Below are positions 3,103 through 33,562 of a stretch of 42,666 nucleotides of DNA, piece by piece. The number at the start of each line of letters is the position of its first letter. Position 1 is the stretch's first letter. Source of the DNA: Phycisphaeraceae bacterium (GTDB lineage: Bacteria > Planctomycetota > Phycisphaerae > Phycisphaerales > Phycisphaeraceae); contig JAHQVV010000185.1 of NCBI GenBank assembly GCA_019634195.1, positions 1 through 42,666 on the forward strand. The letters run 5' to 3'. A program made the translations under genes and the position numbers. The notes below the pieces were generated by a model, which saw nothing but the letters and a program-made list of their open reading frames with translations, did no database searches and had not been told where the DNA came from.

Positions 3103-5517
3103 TCAGATCCCCGCGCCTTCGTAGTGCGCGGTGTTGAGGTGGCAGGCGATCATCTGGATCAGTTTGTGGCGGTCGATGGGCTTGCTGAGGTAGTCGTTGC
3201 AGCCGGCGGCGAGGCACTTATTGCGGTCCTCGCTGGAGGCGTGGGCGGTCAGCGCGATGATGGGTCGGTCGTAGCCCGCGTCGCGGAGCTGGGTGGCTGC
3301 GTTGTAGCCGTCGAGCACGGGCATCTGCATGTCCATGAGGATGACATCGAAGGGCTGGTTGTCTTGCAGGGCCTGGAGGGCCGCTTCTTTGCCGACCTCG
3401 CCGTTCTCTGCGAGCACGGTGGCTGCGCCGGCCTTGCGGATGAAGTGCTGGAAGAGCCGCTGGTTGTCCGGCCCGTCCTCGACGATGAGGATGCGCGTGC
3501 CGTGCAGGGTGTCGGCGGTGGTCGGGGCTGTGGTTGCCGGGCTTGGCTCGGTGGGCGAGGCGTGATCCGTGGTTTCGATGCGGAAGGTGGCGGTGAAGGT
3601 CGAGCCCTGGCCGGGGGCGGAGGTGCTGACGAGCTCGCCGCCGAGCATCTTGCAGAGGTTGGTGCAGATTGCCAGGCCCAGCCCGGTGCCGCCGAACTTC
3701 CGTGTGGTGGATTCGTCGGCCTGGCTGAAGGGCTTGAAGAGCTTGGTCATCTGCTCGTCAGTGATGCCGATACCGGTATCGCTGACGTCGCATTTCAGGC
3801 ATGCCGTGCCGTTGTCGTCGGGCTCGATGCTTACGGCTAAGCCAACCTCGCCCTGCTCGGTGAACTTGATCGCGTTGCCGATGAGGTTGATGAGCACCTG
3901 TCGGACGCGCGTGGGGTCGGTCTTGATGTACTCGGGCAGCTTGCTGTTGGCCTTGAAGCCTAGGCGGATGCCGCGCTCGTCCGCTTTGGGCGCCATGAGG
4001 TCGGTGACGCTTTGGAATAGTTCTGCTGGGTCGCAGGTGATTTGTTCGACCGCGAGCTTGCCGGCCTCGATCTTAGAGAGGTCCAGGACGTCGTTGAGGA
4101 CGCTCAGGAGGTGCTTGCCGCTGCGTCGGATGGTCTGGGCGTGGTTGCGTTTGTCGGCCTCGGTCTGCCCGCCGTCGAGCAGGAGGTCCGCGTAACCGAG
4201 GATCGCGTTCATCGGGGTGCGGATCTCGTGGCTCATGTTGGCGAGGAAGGCGCTCTTGGCGGCGCTGGCCTTCTGGGCCTGGTCGCGTGCCTGCTCGAGC
4301 TGCTGCTGCGCGGTTTTCTGCTCGTGGATATCGACGTGCAGGCCGACCATGCGTGTGACTTTACCGTTCTCGTCGCGTTCAACGGCTTCGCCGACGTCCA
4401 GGACCCATTGCCAATCCCCGGCCTTGTTCTTCACGCGGATCTCGCAGGTGTAGCGTTCACTCTCGCCTTGGAAATACGCTTCCAATGCTGCCATCGCGCG
4501 TTTCAGGTCTTCGGGCTCGGTCAGGTCGGTCCAGGACTGCAGCGTCATCGGCAGCTCACCGGGTTCGTAGCCGAGCATCGTGAACCATGTCTCGGAGAAA
4601 TAGGTCTGATCCGTTTCGACGAGCCAGTCCCAGAGGCCCGACCGTGATGCCTGCAGCGCGAACTCCAGGCGGTGTTTTTGTTCCTCGAGCTCGCGCGCGG
4701 AGGCTTTGCGTTTTGAGATATCACTGATCGACCCGGCCATGCGGATGGGGTTGCCCAGCTCGTCCCATTGGGCCTGGCCCGCGGCGTGGCACCAGACGTA
4801 GTGCCCGTCTTTGTGCCGCAGCCGGTACTCCACGTCGTAGGGCTCTTGCTGTTCGATGTGGCGCTTGAGCTTGCCAAGCGTGCGCTCTTTGTCTTGCGGG
4901 TGCAGGCGGGAGACAAAGTCGTCGAGGACCGGGTCGGCTTCATCGGCCGTGTAGCCGATCAGCTCCTTGAACCTTGGCGACCAGTAGAGCTGGTCGGTCT
5001 TGCAGTCCCAGTCCCAGATACCGCTGGCGTTGCCCGCGACGAGCAGCTTAAAACGCTCGTTGGCTATTTTGAGCTTCTCGTCGGCGGACTTCTGAGCGGT
5101 GATGTCCGAGAAGGTGACGGTCAAGCCATCGCCGCACCTGGCGGCTTTGATGCTGGACCAGTGGTTTAGGCCGTCGTGGTGTTCGGTGTAGAAGGGCGCG
5201 CCGGTCTCGACGACCTTGATGTACGCGTCGAAGAGCCCGGCCTCCTTGTTGCCCGGGAAGGCATTGAGCATCGTTTGCCCGAGCAGTTGGGCCGAGGTCT
5301 GGCCGACGATCTCCTCGCACTTGCGGTTGACGAACTCGACCGCGAAATCGACGACCCGCCTCTGGTCGTCGCGGACCGAGGAGAACAGGATGACCCCGTC
5401 CAGCGAGCTGTCAAGCACACTGGCGAGGAGATCGGCTTGGTTATTGGAGCTGTATTTCGCGTGCATGTATGGCGCGATCATAGAATCGGCGCCCCCGCCC
5501 GAACCGCTAATCGGCAC
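3103..5517 (-). CDS. Hybrid sensor histidine kinase with PAS repeats and C-terminal receiver
   Basis: The product is 804 residues from GTG; ATG starts at residues 13 (base 5481) and 18 are equally plausible. No membrane segment is seen, so it is a cytoplasmic sensor. In order it has three PAS/PAC modules (about 28-140, 155-270 and 283-402; each ends with a motif like SDIT, SDISKRK or VDIHEQK), then HisKA with SHEIRTPMNAIL (His430). The ATPase domain follows (N box LIGNAIKF around Asn548, DTGIGI at 580, GGTGLGLAI at 609). A receiver domain comes last (about 675-795), with the phospho-acceptor Asp729 in LMDMQMP and Lys779. All catalytic residues are present. There is no adjacent output regulator; the stand-alone Hpt protein at 23707 is a conceivable but unproven relay partner. 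The gene is divergent from the HD-GYP gene at 5625. Confidence 0.93.
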   Translation of the reverse strand: MPISGSGGGADSMIAPYMHAKYSSNNQADLLASVLDSSLDGVILFSSVRDDQRRVVDFAVEFVNRKCEEIVGQTSAQLLGQTMLNAFPGNKEAGLFDAYIKVVETGAPFYTEHHDGLNHWSSIKAARCGDGLTVTFSDITAQKSADEKLKIANERFKLLVAGNASGIWDWDCKTDQLYWSPRFKELIGYTADEADPVLDDFVSRLHPQDKERTLGKLKRHIEQQEPYDVEYRLRHKDGHYVWCHAAGQAQWDELGNPIRMAGSISDISKRKASARELEEQKHRLEFALQASRSGLWDWLVETDQTYFSETWFTMLGYEPGELPMTLQSWTDLTEPEDLKRAMAALEAYFQGESERYTCEIRVKNKAGDWQWVLDVGEAVERDENGKVTRMVGLHVDIHEQKTAQQQLEQARDQAQKASAAKSAFLANMSHEIRTPMNAILGYADLLLDGGQTEADKRNHAQTIRRSGKHLLSVLNDVLDLSKIEAGKLAVEQITCDPAELFQSVTDLMAPKADERGIRLGFKANSKLPEYIKTDPTRVRQVLINLIGNAIKFTEQGEVGLAVSIEPDDNGTACLKCDVSDTGIGITDEQMTKLFKPFSQADESTTRKFGGTGLGLAICTNLCKMLGGELVSTSAPGQGSTFTATFRIETTDHASPTEPSPATTAPTTADTLHGTRILIVEDGPDNQRLFQHFIRKAGAATVLAENGEVGKEAALQALQDNQPFDVILMDMQMPVLDGYNAATQLRDAGYDRPIIALTAHASSEDRNKCLAAGCNDYLSKPIDRHKLIQMIACHLNTAHYEGAGI

Positions 5518-6888: not shown

Positions 6889-8856
6889 ATGTCTGTCTAC
6901 CAAAAGAACCTGAACGCGATCACACGCCACCACCCGCACCTGGCGGAACAGCTTTCAGTTATTGAACCGGCGTCACTGGACTGGTCCGACTCTAAGGCGG
7001 GGCCGCTGACCGCGGTTCGCACGGACCTCGGGCCGCGCCCGGTGGCCTTGGCGAGCAAGTACGACCCGGTCAAGGAGGCGCAGAAGCTCGTCGAGCCGGT
7101 GAACCATGCGAAGACGGCGTGCACCGTGATCCTCGGGTTTGGCCTGGGCTACCACATCGACGAGCTGGTCGGGCACGTCGGCCCTAAAGACCTGGTGATC
7201 GTTTACGAGCCGGACCTGGCTCAGCTCAAGGCGGTGTTGGAGGAGCTGGACTACACGCATTGGCTGGCGCAGAACGGGCTGATCCTGGCCGGGCCTGACG
7301 CGAGCAAGTCGATGCTGCTGGGCCGGATCGAGAAGCGCAGCGCGACGCTGACGCTGGGCACGCAGATCGTTACGCACCCCGCTTCACGACAGCGGCATGG
7401 CGAGGCGTTCAACGCGTTCGGCAAGCTCGTTACCGAGACGCTCGCGTTCTGCCGGACGAATGTCGCGACGGCATTGGTCAACGCCTCGCGCACGGTCAGC
7501 AACCTGGCGAACAACCTGGCGCAGTACGCCGCGGGCCCGACGATCGCGGAGCTGGAGAACGCGGCCAAGGGCTACCCCGCCATCTGCGTCGGGGCGGGTC
7601 CTTCGCTGGTCAAGAACCTGGACCTGCTGTCGGACCCCGAGGTGCGGAAGAATGTCGTGGTCATCGGCGTGCAGACGACGCTCAAGCCGATGCTTCAGCG
7701 CGGGATCCGCCCGGACTTTATTACGGCGCTGGACTACTCGGCGATCTGTACGCGGTTCTACGAGGACCTGCCCGAGCTGCCTGACGTCACGCTGGTTGTT
7801 GAGCCCAAGTGCCACCCGGCGATCATCGCGGCGTACCCCGGCCCGGTGCGCGTCTGCCCGAACAGCCTGAACGACAAGCTGCTGGGCGAGATGGCCCGGC
7901 CGATGCCGAAGATCAAGGCGGGCACGACTGTTGCGCACCTGTCGTTCTACCTGGCCCAGCTGCTGGGCTGCGACCCGATCATCTTCATCGGGCAGGACCT
8001 TGGCTTTTCGGACGGCTTGTACTATGCGCCGGGGACCGCGGTGCACAAGGTCTGGGAGCCGGAGCTGGGCGCGTTCAACACGATCGAAACGATGGAGTGG
8101 ACGCGTGTCGTGCGGATGCGGGGCAACCTGCGCCGTGCCGAGGATGTGCATGGCCGGCCGATCTTCACCGACGAGCAGATGAGCACGTACCTGGGCCAGT
8201 TCGAGCGCGATTTCGATGAGGCGGAACAGGCGGGTCTGACGGTGATCGACGCGACCGAGGGCGGGGTGCCGAAGCAGCACACGGCGTTGAGCACGCTGCG
8301 TGAGGCGTTGGATGAGCACGCGACCAAGCCGGTGCCCGAGTTGCCGCGTGCCGAGGCCGTGCTCAGCCGCGAGCGGCTTTCGAAGCTGCGCGGGCTGCTC
8401 GATGGGCGGATCGACAGCGTGAAGGAACTCAAGCGCGTCACGCTGGACACGGACAAGCTCCTTAAGCGCTTGCGCGAGAACCAGCAGAACCCCAAGAAGG
8501 CGGGCAAGCTGTTTGACCAGGTGCAGAAGAACACCGCCAAGGTGCACGGCGAGCTGAAGGAGGCGTTCGAGCTGGTGAGCTCGGTGAACACGCTGGGCAC
8601 GTTCCGCCGCGAGCGGGCCGACCGCGGGATCCACCACACCGAGCACGGCGGCGAGTACGAGCGCCAGCTCGCACAGATCGAGCGCGACCTGGACAACATG
8701 GGCTTCATCGATCAGGCCTGCGACGAGGCGCTGACGATCTTCAACGAGGCGAGGCAGCGGCTGATGGACGCGGTCGATGCGAGCAAAGAAACGCACATTG
8801 TGGCAAGTGAAATAGCCCCCATCGCGAAGCGGGGGTTGAAGTCGCAGGTTGCTTGA
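6889..8856 (+). CDS. Maf/DUF115 motility-associated glycosyltransferase-like protein
   Basis: The product is 655 residues from ATG; the open frame extends upstream but only over the end of the HD-GYP gene. The central domain contains YPAICVGAGPSLVKNLDLL (about 230-248), the DUF115 (MptE-like) nucleotide-sugar-binding signature, and FIGQDLGFSDGLYYA at about 370-384. The N-terminal part has the family's GFGLGYHIDELV element. The C-terminal third is charged and helical. Maf proteins attach nonulosonic acids (pseudaminic or legionaminic acid) to flagellin Ser/Thr residues in the cytoplasm. The downstream CMP-sugar synthetase and NeuC-type epimerase support that role. It is the first gene of the + strand cluster. 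Domain call firm; sugar and acceptor inferred. Confidence 0.85.
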   Translation: MSVYQKNLNAITRHHPHLAEQLSVIEPASLDWSDSKAGPLTAVRTDLGPRPVALASKYDPVKEAQKLVEPVNHAKTACTVILGFGLGYHIDELVGHVGPKDLVIVYEPDLAQLKAVLEELDYTHWLAQNGLILAGPDASKSMLLGRIEKRSATLTLGTQIVTHPASRQRHGEAFNAFGKLVTETLAFCRTNVATALVNASRTVSNLANNLAQYAAGPTIAELENAAKGYPAICVGAGPSLVKNLDLLSDPEVRKNVVVIGVQTTLKPMLQRGIRPDFITALDYSAICTRFYEDLPELPDVTLVVEPKCHPAIIAAYPGPVRVCPNSLNDKLLGEMARPMPKIKAGTTVAHLSFYLAQLLGCDPIIFIGQDLGFSDGLYYAPGTAVHKVWEPELGAFNTIETMEWTRVVRMRGNLRRAEDVHGRPIFTDEQMSTYLGQFERDFDEAEQAGLTVIDATEGGVPKQHTALSTLREALDEHATKPVPELPRAEAVLSRERLSKLRGLLDGRIDSVKELKRVTLDTDKLLKRLRENQQNPKKAGKLFDQVQKNTAKVHGELKEAFELVSSVNTLGTFRRERADRGIHHTEHGGEYERQLAQIERDLDNMGFIDQACDEALTIFNEARQRLMDAVDASKETHIVASEIAPIAKRGLKSQVA

Positions 8857-8922: not shown

Positions 8923-10746
8923 ATGACCAACCTCGCCATTATCCAAGTCGATTTGACCCAAGGCCGGTTCGGTCACGCGGCATCGCTGCTGGACGGGCTG
9001 GCTGGCAAGACGGTGCTGCAGCACACGATCGACCGGGTCGCGCAGATCGAAGGCATCGACGAGGTCGTGCTCATGCACCCGGCGGATCAATCGCTGGAGG
9101 GGGTGTACGACCCGCCCGAGGCAAGCCCGCCGATCACGACGGCGGTCATGCAGACGCGCGATCAGGACGACTGGCTGCGCGGCGTCATCGGCTCGGGCCG
9201 CAAGTGGTCGCTCACGGCCTGGCGCGGCGGCATCGGCGGGGTGACGGTCTATGACGAGCTGCTGCCCGCCTACCCGTTTTTAAAGGTCCTGCAGGCAAAA
9301 AACGCCGAGTCGCTCGTCGCGGTGCGTGGCGACTGGTGCTTTGTTGACCCCGCGCTGGCGACGAAACAGTTGGAGCTGCACCGCTCGGCGCCCGAGGCGA
9401 TGAAGCTGACGTTCACCCAGGCGCCGCCCGGGCTGAGCCCGCTGGTCGTGCACCACAGCGTGCTGCGGGAGATGGTCGAGCATGCCGCGACGGTCGCGAA
9501 CATGCTGTGCTACAACCCCAAGAAGCCGGTGATCGACCCGATGGGCAAGGACGTGAACGTCCAGGTGCCCGCCTCGGTGCGTGGCCAGTACCGCCGGTTC
9601 ATCTACGACAGCCCGCGCGCGATCGCCCACCTGCGCGCCACCGCGCAGCGGCTGGGCGGCGCGCTTTGCGGTGCCGGTGCCGTGGCGGTGACCGACGCCT
9701 CGCGCGCGGTTGAAGCAAACGAGCCCTGGCTGGAGCTGGAGCGGCTGCCGCAGCAGGTCAACGTCGAGTTGTCGCCGAGGCGCGCGGCCAATGGCCCGAT
9801 CGTGCCGCAGCACTACCTCGACCTGCCGCGCGAGGACATGGCGGTCGAGACGATCGATGCGTTGTTCGATTCTCTCGGGAGGGCGAGGCTCCTGCCGAGC
9901 CGCGAATCTTCTGCGGGTATCGGCTCGGCGGGAGCCTCGCCCTCCCAGAGTGATGCCCCTACAACAACAGCAAACTACGTGATACTCAATGACGGGAGCG
10001 AGACCAGCCCCGCCTTGGATTCGGATACGTCGGTCCTCTTCGGCGGGCTCGGCGACCCGCTGCTGCACGGCGGTTGGTTTGAGACGCTGCAGCGAGCAAC
10101 CAGCGGCGCCCTGCTGGGCGTTGGGGTCGAGACGGACTTGTTGGTCGATGAAGACGCGGTGGGTCGTTTAGCGACGCTGCCGCTGGATGTGATCGCGGTG
10201 CGGATCAACGCGGACAGTGCGGCGACGTATAAGCAGTTGATGGGTGTCGATGGCTTTGGGCAGGTGATGGACAACCTGCAGCGGCTGTTCAAGGCGCGCA
10301 ACGCCAACCGCCAGCGGGGGGCGGGCTTTAGGGGCTGGGTGGTGCCGAGGCTGGTGAAGGTGGCGGAGAATTTATCGGACCTGGAAACGTTCTTTGAGCG
10401 TTGGATGACGGTGTCGGGCTGGGCGGTGGTGGACCGGGCGAAGACGGGCCGGGGCCTGATCCCGGATATGTCGCCGGTGCCGATGGAGGTGCCCCAGCCG
10501 CCGGGGGGCGCGTTGCCGCCGCCGCCGCCGAAGCAGCGGCTGACCGTGCTGAGCGACGGGACGGTCTGTCTTTGTGGCGAGGACTGGCTTGGCCGTTTGC
10601 CGCTGGGCTCGTTGGGTGATCACGGTTTGGATGAACTGTGGCGGGGTATTGCATCGCTGGCCGATGTGAGCGAGGGTGACTCATGTGTTTGCCCCAGTTG
10701 TGCCCGTTGGCTGGAAACGCATCGCCATCAGTTGGCGTCTGTTTAG
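8923..10746 (+). CDS. Nucleotidyltransferase-like / Cys-less radical-SAM-like / SPASM-like fusion protein
   Basis: The product is 607 residues. Residues 1-250 resemble an SpsF/CMP-sugar-type nucleotidyltransferase (LAIIQVDLTQGRFGHAASLL, GKTVLQHTIDRVAQIEGIDEVV). From about 275 the pattern is a radical SAM barrel: NVELSPRRAANG, then FGGLGDPLLHGG (about 373-384; compare GGEPLLH), ETDLLVDEDAV, LDVIAVRINA and a long Pro linker (523-536). The tail has SPASM-like cysteines at 549, 551, 588, 590 and 593 (VCLCGEDW ... CVCPSC). The CxxxCxxC motif for the SAM cluster is absent: PRRAANG occupies its place, so canonical radical chemistry is unlikely. Residues about 319-341 are encoded by a palindromic repeat inserted in frame. 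Role inferred: nonulosonate activation or modification with the neighbouring genes. Confidence 0.72.
   Translation: MTNLAIIQVDLTQGRFGHAASLLDGLAGKTVLQHTIDRVAQIEGIDEVVLMHPADQSLEGVYDPPEASPPITTAVMQTRDQDDWLRGVIGSGRKWSLTAWRGGIGGVTVYDELLPAYPFLKVLQAKNAESLVAVRGDWCFVDPALATKQLELHRSAPEAMKLTFTQAPPGLSPLVVHHSVLREMVEHAATVANMLCYNPKKPVIDPMGKDVNVQVPASVRGQYRRFIYDSPRAIAHLRATAQRLGGALCGAGAVAVTDASRAVEANEPWLELERLPQQVNVELSPRRAANGPIVPQHYLDLPREDMAVETIDALFDSLGRARLLPSRESSAGIGSAGASPSQSDAPTTTANYVILNDGSETSPALDSDTSVLFGGLGDPLLHGGWFETLQRATSGALLGVGVETDLLVDEDAVGRLATLPLDVIAVRINADSAATYKQLMGVDGFGQVMDNLQRLFKARNANRQRGAGFRGWVVPRLVKVAENLSDLETFFERWMTVSGWAVVDRAKTGRGLIPDMSPVPMEVPQPPGGALPPPPPKQRLTVLSDGTVCLCGEDWLGRLPLGSLGDHGLDELWRGIASLADVSEGDSCVCPSCARWLETHRHQLASV
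9877..9946. repeat. Palindromic repeat (GGGAGGGCGAGG type) inserted within a coding region
   Basis: The arms are 9877-9902 and 9921-9946, 26 bases each with one mismatch. The same arms, 25 of 26 identical, occur between genes at 13504-13573. Here the element is translated in frame as a low-complexity Arg/Ser/Ala/Gly stretch between two strands of the radical-SAM-like domain, without introducing a stop. This is the behaviour described for Rickettsia palindromic elements; I do not claim homology to them. Confidence 0.85.
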
Positions 10747-12871: not shown

Positions 12872-13492
12872 ATGTTCGCGCAAGCTGCTGCACAATCCGG
12901 CTGGGTGCCTTACCTGGTCTTCGAGTCGCCGGGCTGGTTGATGGCGTTCTTTGCGCTGTGCTTTGCGGTCACGCGCATTGTTGGCCGGCGTACGGGCAAC
13001 CCGCGGGTGATGCGCCTGTCGTGGATCGCGTTGGGGCTGGTCGGGTTGTTGTTTGCTTCTTCGTACTTCGTGACCACGCCACGCGAGCGCCTGGCGGTGG
13101 CGCTTAAGGGATTGTTGCTTGCGGTGGAGGACAAGCGGCTCGACGACGTCCGGGCGATGGTGGCCGAAGACGCAACGATCGCTTACACCGGCAAGGAGAG
13201 CGGCCGGCCGTCGTTTATGCCCGACGAGCTGACGCGTGGGCAGATGATGGAGCGCATCGATCGTGTCGAGTTCAAAGACATCCTGCTGATCAATCAAAGT
13301 GCTCAGCTCGGCCCTGAGCCCGGCTATGGCACCACTGGGCTCCGCGTCAACGTCCGGGGCAGCGTCGGTGGCTTCCCCGGGACGAATGTCAGTATCTGGG
13401 GCATCCGCTGGCGGGAGGTCGATGGCCGATGGGTCGCGGTCCGGCTCGAGTGCATCGAGTTCGGGGCCGAGGCCCTGTTTAACCGCGAGTGA
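12872..13492 (+). CDS. Two-pass membrane protein with NTF2/SnoaL-like domain, hypothetical
   Basis: The product is 206 residues from ATG; a GTG two codons upstream is the alternative. Two hydrophobic segments (about 14-34 and 49-66) flank a short basic loop. The following domain (about 70-206: RLAVALKGLLLAVEDKRLDDVRAMVAEDATI ... GIRWREVDGRWVAVRLECIEF) has the length and pattern of a cone-shaped NTF2-like fold. The function is unknown. It stands between two palindromic elements and has no evident operon partner. Confidence 0.65.
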   Translation: MFAQAAAQSGWVPYLVFESPGWLMAFFALCFAVTRIVGRRTGNPRVMRLSWIALGLVGLLFASSYFVTTPRERLAVALKGLLLAVEDKRLDDVRAMVAEDATIAYTGKESGRPSFMPDELTRGQMMERIDRVEFKDILLINQSAQLGPEPGYGTTGLRVNVRGSVGGFPGTNVSIWGIRWREVDGRWVAVRLECIEFGAEALFNRE

Positions 13493-13503: not shown

Positions 13504-13573
13504 GGGAGGGCGAGGCTCCCGCCGAGCCGCAAGTACCAGGTGATTCTCGGCTCGGTGGGAGCCTCGCCCTCCC
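13504..13573. repeat. Palindromic repeat (GGGAGGGCGAGG type), intergenic copy
   Basis: The arms are 13504-13529 and 13548-13573, 26 bases with one mismatch. This is the intergenic sibling of the in-gene copy at 9877-9946. The internal spacers differ in sequence but have the same 18-base length. Confidence 0.85.
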
Positions 13574-14660: not shown

Positions 14661-14741
14661 GTGTAGCGGGAGACGCGCAGCGTCCCGTTCTCGAATCATG
14701 ATAGACACCGCGCACGGGACGCTGCGCGTCACCCGCTACAC
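14661..14741. repeat. Palindromic repeat (GTGTAGCGGG type)
   Basis: The arms are 14661-14687 and 14715-14741, 26 of 27 bases paired. It lies between two convergent genes, where it may serve both as a terminator. Confidence 0.8.
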
Positions 14742-33464: not shown

Positions 33465-33562
33465 TTTCCACAGAGGGCACGGAGGCCACAGAGTAATGGA
33501 TTTGGTTTTGATCCCCTATGCCTTGCTCTGTGGCCTCCGTGCCTCTGTGTCCTCTGTGGAAA
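33465..33562. repeat. Palindromic repeat (CCACAGAGG type), copy 2
   Basis: The left arm 33465-33493 is the reverse complement of 33526-33562, except for an eight-base insertion (TCTGTGTC) in the right arm. The left arm begins 20 bases upstream of the rdgB start. The insertion looks like a slippage duplication of the CTCTGTG motif. It is related to the element at 11523-11602. Confidence 0.8.

Follow-up and report, generated by a model that had tools for sequence, protein, structure and literature searches.

A probably mobile palindrome, apparently translated within a gene of a Phycisphaeraceae bacterium

Rickettsia palindromic elements (RPEs), in the available excerpts of PMC10969869, are small palindromes of about 150 bp that lie between genes and in frame within unrelated genes; they encode a conserved peptide, with close to half of their copies located in open reading frames (ORFs). 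REPs of the GTAG and CGTC types are intergenic palindromes behind coding regions, some of which also lie inside ORFs of several species, where many of the inserts encode 20-30 residues; intragenic REPs are most numerous in Opitutus terrae (Verrucomicrobia) and Rickettsia conorii, and flexible linkers or loops have already been proposed as the reason why they are tolerated (PMC3733652, available excerpts). The same excerpts attribute several REP families and many tyrosine transposase genes to R. baltica (PMC3733652). The TIRs of TIRtrons are palindromic or inverted repeats that flank Y1 transposase genes and can likewise disperse (PMC3733652, PMC6006769), and class 3 TnpA genes occur mainly in Planctomycetes, Acidobacteria and Proteobacteria, as far as the excerpts of PMC6006769 describe them.

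Here we analysed a stretch of 42,666 nucleotides from a Phycisphaeraceae bacterium, referred to as the window, in which a palindromic element occupies positions 9877-9946 of the forward strand, inside a forward-strand gene for a protein of 607 residues (8923-10746). The 26-nt arms of the element (9877-9902 and 9921-9946) are 18 nt apart and 96% complementary; delimited more tightly, 25-nt arms (9877-9901 and 9922-9946) enclose a 20-nt loop (9902-9921). As the original prediction had claimed, the palindrome is read through without a stop or frameshift, the frame being open from 8923 to 10746, and residues 319-342 of the protein, GRARLLPSRESSAGIGSAGASPSQ, are encoded by the element in the frame that reads GRARLLPS...GSAGASPS. 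Its further claim of nearly identical arms in an intergenic element was also borne out: a family copy at 13504-13573 (forward strand), 11 nt behind a gene whose stop codon ends at 13492, has the same layout and 81% identity over 70 nt, with one base difference in each of the two arms. On both strands the two palindromes fold with z-scores of -9.2 to -10.5, a value that none of 200 shuffles equalled, and the RNA hairpin has a stability of -63 to -70 kcal/mol. The copy at 13504 was not found in the syntenic contig stretch of the relative G002.

The arms belong to a repeat family dispersed through this genome (G000; 3.62 Mb in 246 contigs). With at most one mismatch, a 17-nt arm core matched 59 places, compared to none for a reversed control, and with at most two mismatches it matched 70 places compared to nine. 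G000 carries at least 30 full-length copies, 28 of 70 nt and two of 69 nt, six lone two-mismatch matches being kept outside this set, and at least 67 full-length copies are present across eight genomes, 50 of which measure exactly 70 nt. All of these numbers are lower bounds, in every genome, because copies with more diverged arms are missed, and for G025 they cover two of five matches. The 20-nt loop is variable, yet a consensus is recognisable. Read outward from the 70 nt in G000, 55 of 59 sides begin with a purine (A or G), and the next five positions are A-rich. On this basis we delimit the unit as Y[70]R, that is 72 nt or 24 codons, which would place the probable insertion unit of the window gene at 9876-9947 (forward strand); its purine flanks and a clean 72-nt difference at a second gene, described below, are consistent with this delimitation.

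Within the genus the family is patchily distributed, with no arm matches in G001 or G003, 17 in G002 and 20 in G004. The exact full palindrome was present in one of 392 genomes of a phylum sample, namely this genome, although that sample was drawn without the family carriers G002, G004, G013 and G081 and the exact pattern catches 12 of the 30 G000 copies. At one mismatch, the 17-nt core was matched in 29 of 101 relatives, many of these matches being single ones such as the control pattern also yields. In the order-level relative G081 (L183-L200), similar stems enclose a loop of about 29-30 nt, giving an element of 79-80 nt in 10 of 12 full copies. Two G000 copies, L073 (C152:5131) and L084 (C218:4960), one of them at a contig end, have a common left flank but carry identical loops facing opposite ways, suggesting that the segment between the arms was inverted. 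A search for similar DNA in phage records found none, and a protein search in plasmids gave no match. On one IMG/VR contig (L241), the same arms occur twice, at 5056-5116 and 7766-7826, with longer loops and similar flanks in inverted orientation; no transposase was recognised by eye among the ORFs between the two copies.

Placement was assessed with gene calls from a codon-usage gene caller trained on the window. The recurrence of the arm, whose copies inside ORFs the original prediction had proposed to count, is mainly intergenic: 26-27 of the 30 full-length G000 copies lie between genes, and four lie within called genes, one of them (C93:3922) only if an early start codon is used. The three clear in-gene copies are in conserved genes, namely the window gene, an amine-oxidase gene on contig C201 and a DUF2071 gene on contig C225. 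Since the coding share of the window is about 86%, about 26 of 30 copies would be expected in genes under even placement, against at most four observed (P ~7e-19), and in-gene copies are therefore strongly depleted. The copy at C93:3922 and two in G002 (L147 and L148) were not counted as in-gene because they are so only near an early start codon, and a G081 copy in a weak 150-aa frame (L191) was likewise left out. The L148 frame matches two metallopeptidase families, both below cut-off. In G025, which belongs to another genus, a diverged copy (L202:730-798) lies in frame within a 929-aa open frame that has no Pfam match; it is a possible fourth in-gene case, outside a count that covers genes whose orthologues were compared.

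The neighbourhood of the intergenic copies was examined for 23 of the 30, the four called in-gene and three at contig ends being set aside. Sixteen of these lie between tandem genes, four between convergent and three between divergent ones. For the tandem arrangement, the gene 3' end is the nearer one in 13 of 16 cases, at a median distance of 16 nt, and 20 of the 24 gene 3' ends that face a copy are within 30 nt of it (median 18).

The consensus arms are free of stop codons in every frame, and among 31 copies (38 positions minus seven partial ones), 21-29 are open in any one of the six frames. All three in-gene copies keep the frame of their gene. The GRARLLPS...GSAGASPS frame is used once, in the window gene, and the EGEAPAEP...RLGxSLAxP frame twice, in the C201 and C225 genes. 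That three genes use two frames argues for simple tolerance rather than selection of a single peptide.

Relatives of all three genes lack the element, with intact flanks, as the original prediction had anticipated for some orthologues. At the window-gene site the insert is absent from all 28 aligned relatives, these being the relatives with a locus at the site out of 52 with a match (29 had loci; L057 ends before the site and was left out, and L031 duplicates L033). The linker at this position is 2-8 residues long in 27 of them, compared to 50 here; that of L049 has 20 residues, which are its own and not the insert. In G002, the best match of the window gene, identity is 68% before the insert and 67% after it, and the window is collinear with G002 contig C3 (L031). 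The element is also absent from six of six relatives of the C201 amine-oxidase gene (PF01593) and from 12 of 12 relatives of the C225 DUF2071 gene (PF09844). The C201 gene is the cleanest of the insertion sites: compared to three relatives of the same genus it has gained exactly 72 nt, or 24 codons, in a protein with 84-86% identity to that of G004. The bases adjoining the element there, CAT and GAA, form no direct repeat, at this one site and against diverged relatives. For the C225 gene, a net gain of about 29-31 residues was counted on the alignment.

The size of the insertion in the window gene agrees only in part with the original prediction. The proposed figure of about 23 added residues fits the element itself, which accounts for about 21-24, but not the whole insertion, which amounts to a net 45 residues (135 nt) compared to G002, the closest orthologue. 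The remainder is a lineage-specific coding stretch of about 21-24 codons (63-69 nt) at 9947-10015 on the forward strand, with an approximate right border. This stretch is not palindromic (fold z-scores 0.2-0.3), and a search of the genome for a second copy of 9947-10030 returned chance-level matches only. Its codon score is lowish, 7.6% of other 24-codon gene windows scoring lower. In G004, the copy whose loop is most similar (L165) has no such stretch past the first few bases. Simple insertion of the element does not explain these additional 63-69 nt, which may have preceded it, come with it or arisen later.

The C-terminal half of the host protein is radical-SAM-like with a SPASM domain. SPASM (PF13186) was the sole domain seen by Pfam, and the nearest NCBIfam model, the spiro-SPASM protein TIGR04321, scored 58.8 bits, below its cut-off of 250. 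Radical SAM enzymes carry a CxxxCxxC motif; it was not found in the region compared in any aligned relative (L033-L061). Cysteines of the SPASM region are mostly retained in 11 relatives, and the neighbouring genes are MptE/Maf-like, cytidylyltransferase and UDP-GlcNAc 2-epimerase genes. An AlphaFold model of the 607-aa protein, built from two sequences, had a mean pLDDT of 36.9, too low to place the insert between two strands of the radical-SAM-like domain as the original prediction had done. Judged by homology, the insert is positioned directly before the GGLGD ('LFGGLGD') segment, and its place within the protein fold is something that we infer. That the gene is a recently inactivated copy is conceivable in principle; against this stand its open frame and the 67-68% identity of both halves to G002.

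The repeat family and the empty sites in relatives support the view, put forward in the original prediction, that an intergenic mobile palindrome has become coding sequence; of the two observations that it had named as refuting this view, a homologous insert in all orthologues and an arm not repeated elsewhere, neither was made. Very probably, a mobile palindrome about 72 nt long, non-autonomous and of the REP or TIR type, entered the window gene on the lineage that led to this genome, and the cell, judging from the sequence, apparently translates a piece of selfish DNA. The target would have been a linker whose length varies among relatives, directly before the 'LFGGLGD' segment. Most insertions into genes would be frame-neutral, because the unit comprises 24 codons and the consensus arms are open in any frame; selection would in consequence purge copies from structured parts and spare those in tolerant loops, where the repeat would then be translated. 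A length that is a multiple of three together with stop-free stems would thus be a simple account of how such DNA survives in genes. The inserted peptide is most likely without function.

An alternative that we consider improbable is that the palindrome is a regulatory structure of the host, a terminator or RNA-processing hairpin spread by gene conversion, the in-gene copies being accidents of recombination. The stability of the hairpin and the position of copies close behind stop codons, including the preference for the 3' end among tandem genes, are what such a structure would lead one to expect. However, the flanks are T-rich before the stem and A-rich after it, whereas a bidirectional intrinsic terminator needs the opposite arrangement, and both the patchy presence inside one genus and the exact 72-nt gain in the C201 gene speak against a host structure. 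Far less probable still is that the insert is an old, selected feature of the protein, palindromic by chance and never inserted as DNA: although it is in frame and stop-free, it is missing from every one of the relatives aligned at the site, the same DNA recurs outside coding sequence and also, read in another frame, within two further genes, and the mean codon score of the element (-0.29) is unlike that of the gene before it (+0.55) and after it (+0.28). Finally, the repeat might have led the assembly to join two unrelated contigs, and four contigs (C24, C123, C209 and C218) do end in it or directly beside it; we regard this as barely conceivable for the in-gene copies, since both sides of every one match adjoining segments of a single orthologue, and the window and G002 contig C3 (L031) are collinear.

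R. baltica, introduced above, is a planctomycete. Compared to the described systems, the insertion family found here appears, by analogy, to work like both REPs and RPEs. As described for RPEs, in-frame copies lie in unrelated genes and are absent from the orthologues, in this case for three genes. In contrast to the RPEs of the available excerpts (PMC10969869), with their size of about 150 bp, nearly half of copies in ORFs and one peptide, the unit here is 72 nt (50 of 67 copies being 70 nt) and about three of 30 copies lie in genes, in two frames; the host lineage is also another one, and the comparison is one of published descriptions. As for REPs, the copies are mostly intergenic (26-27 of 30) and behind coding regions, with 20 of the 24 3' ends that face a copy no more than 30 nt away. 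The arms of 25-26 nt nevertheless differ from the 5-13 bp stems given for REPs in the excerpts of PMC3733652, and the GTAG or CGTC end tag typical of REPs has no consistent counterpart: on either strand, GTAG or CGTC falls in the interval from 8 nt beyond an end to 4 nt inside it in seven of 67 copies, and wholly within the 5 nt beyond an end in three of 67. We file the family under neither heading, because it lacks the tag and stem length of REPs as well as the size and single peptide of RPEs. The original prediction had held that coding palindromes are known for Rickettsia and undescribed in this lineage. The first part was too narrow, the phenomenon not being specific to Rickettsia in the excerpts of PMC3733652; as to the second, no report of translated palindromes in Phycisphaerae was found in the open-access literature, which is weak evidence of their absence from print. 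The present locus thus offers a clear example, backed by empty sites, of a small mobile palindrome turned coding, of a kind already known but in a lineage for which no earlier report was found.

The excerpts of PMC3733652 and PMC6006769 describe repeats that flank the transposase genes of TIRtrons and class 3 systems; the element's family was not found in such a position at the loci examined here. In ten genomes we located 22 Y1_Tnp loci (PF01797) and scanned about 1.5 kb around each, or up to the contig end, by script for palindromes with arms of at least 17 nt; the family was beside none of the 22, and seven of them had long palindromes of other families on either side. The Y1 gene on contig C50 of this genome has a second palindrome family on both sides, with 27-nt stems and an 18-nt loop. 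This C50 family is itself dispersed, with 57 arm matches at up to three mismatches compared to none in the control. In a set of 18 full copies, drawn from the 30 of the 57 arm matches with loci, none is in a gene interior and one overlaps the called start of the transposase frame.

The stems of the C50 family are unrelated to those of the element, and its loops resemble the element's loop. Scored on the element loop profile, the C50-family loops averaged 1.46, compared to 500 shuffles that averaged -5.2 and reached -1.7 at most, although this test overstates independence because the C50-family loops are related to each other, and seven of the 18 score below zero. The loops of the two palindromes flanking the C50 gene score 3.7 and 5.3, and that of one palindrome at the C198 transposase is higher, at 6.4. 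The string GAATCTTCTG is common to some loops of both families. Resting on loop sequence, the likeness is suggestive of a link between the element and the C50 transposase family. The element may have been moved by a Y1 (HUH) transposase reading the tip of the hairpin, with the C50 enzyme as candidate; we give this proposal about an even chance. The tip likeness to a transposase-linked family provides a way to test what mobilises palindromes lacking a transposase of their own.

An outer inverted repeat near CTTAGAACGTGTGTGAGAAG surrounds several copies of the element's family, and other instances surround different palindromes in different genomes (L073, L084, L088, L163, L169, L171, L148, L232, L234, L235 and L240), as if palindromes had been nested or swapped. 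A more speculative reading, which we hold to be possible but rather doubtful, is that these palindromes are modular: a tip of approximately CGARTC-NTCTGT-GAYTCG is common to unrelated stems, some with the outer repeat around different inner palindromes, and one tip-reading Y1 transposase could move several stem-swapped families, the stop-free 24-codon unit acting as a frame-neutral inserter of peptides.

The window contains other palindromes. One at 2446-2538 has arms GGTAGGACAGGCATTCCTGCCTGTC, and a near-identical stem is found on both sides of a Y1_Tnp gene on G002 contig C257 (L206). Another, at 14661-14741, contains GTGTAGCGGGAGACGCGCAGCGTCCCG; on contig C198 of this genome (L063), the Y1_Tnp gene is flanked by an almost identical stem. 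Positions 1-191, at the contig end, form a near-perfect inverted repeat of 86-89 nt, which may be a fold-back artefact of assembly; within it, the GAGCACGAAGCG palindrome family has matches at 62-130. A further palindrome, TTTCCACAGAGGGCACGGAGGC / GCCTCTGTGTCCTCTGTGGAAA, is located at 33465-33562.
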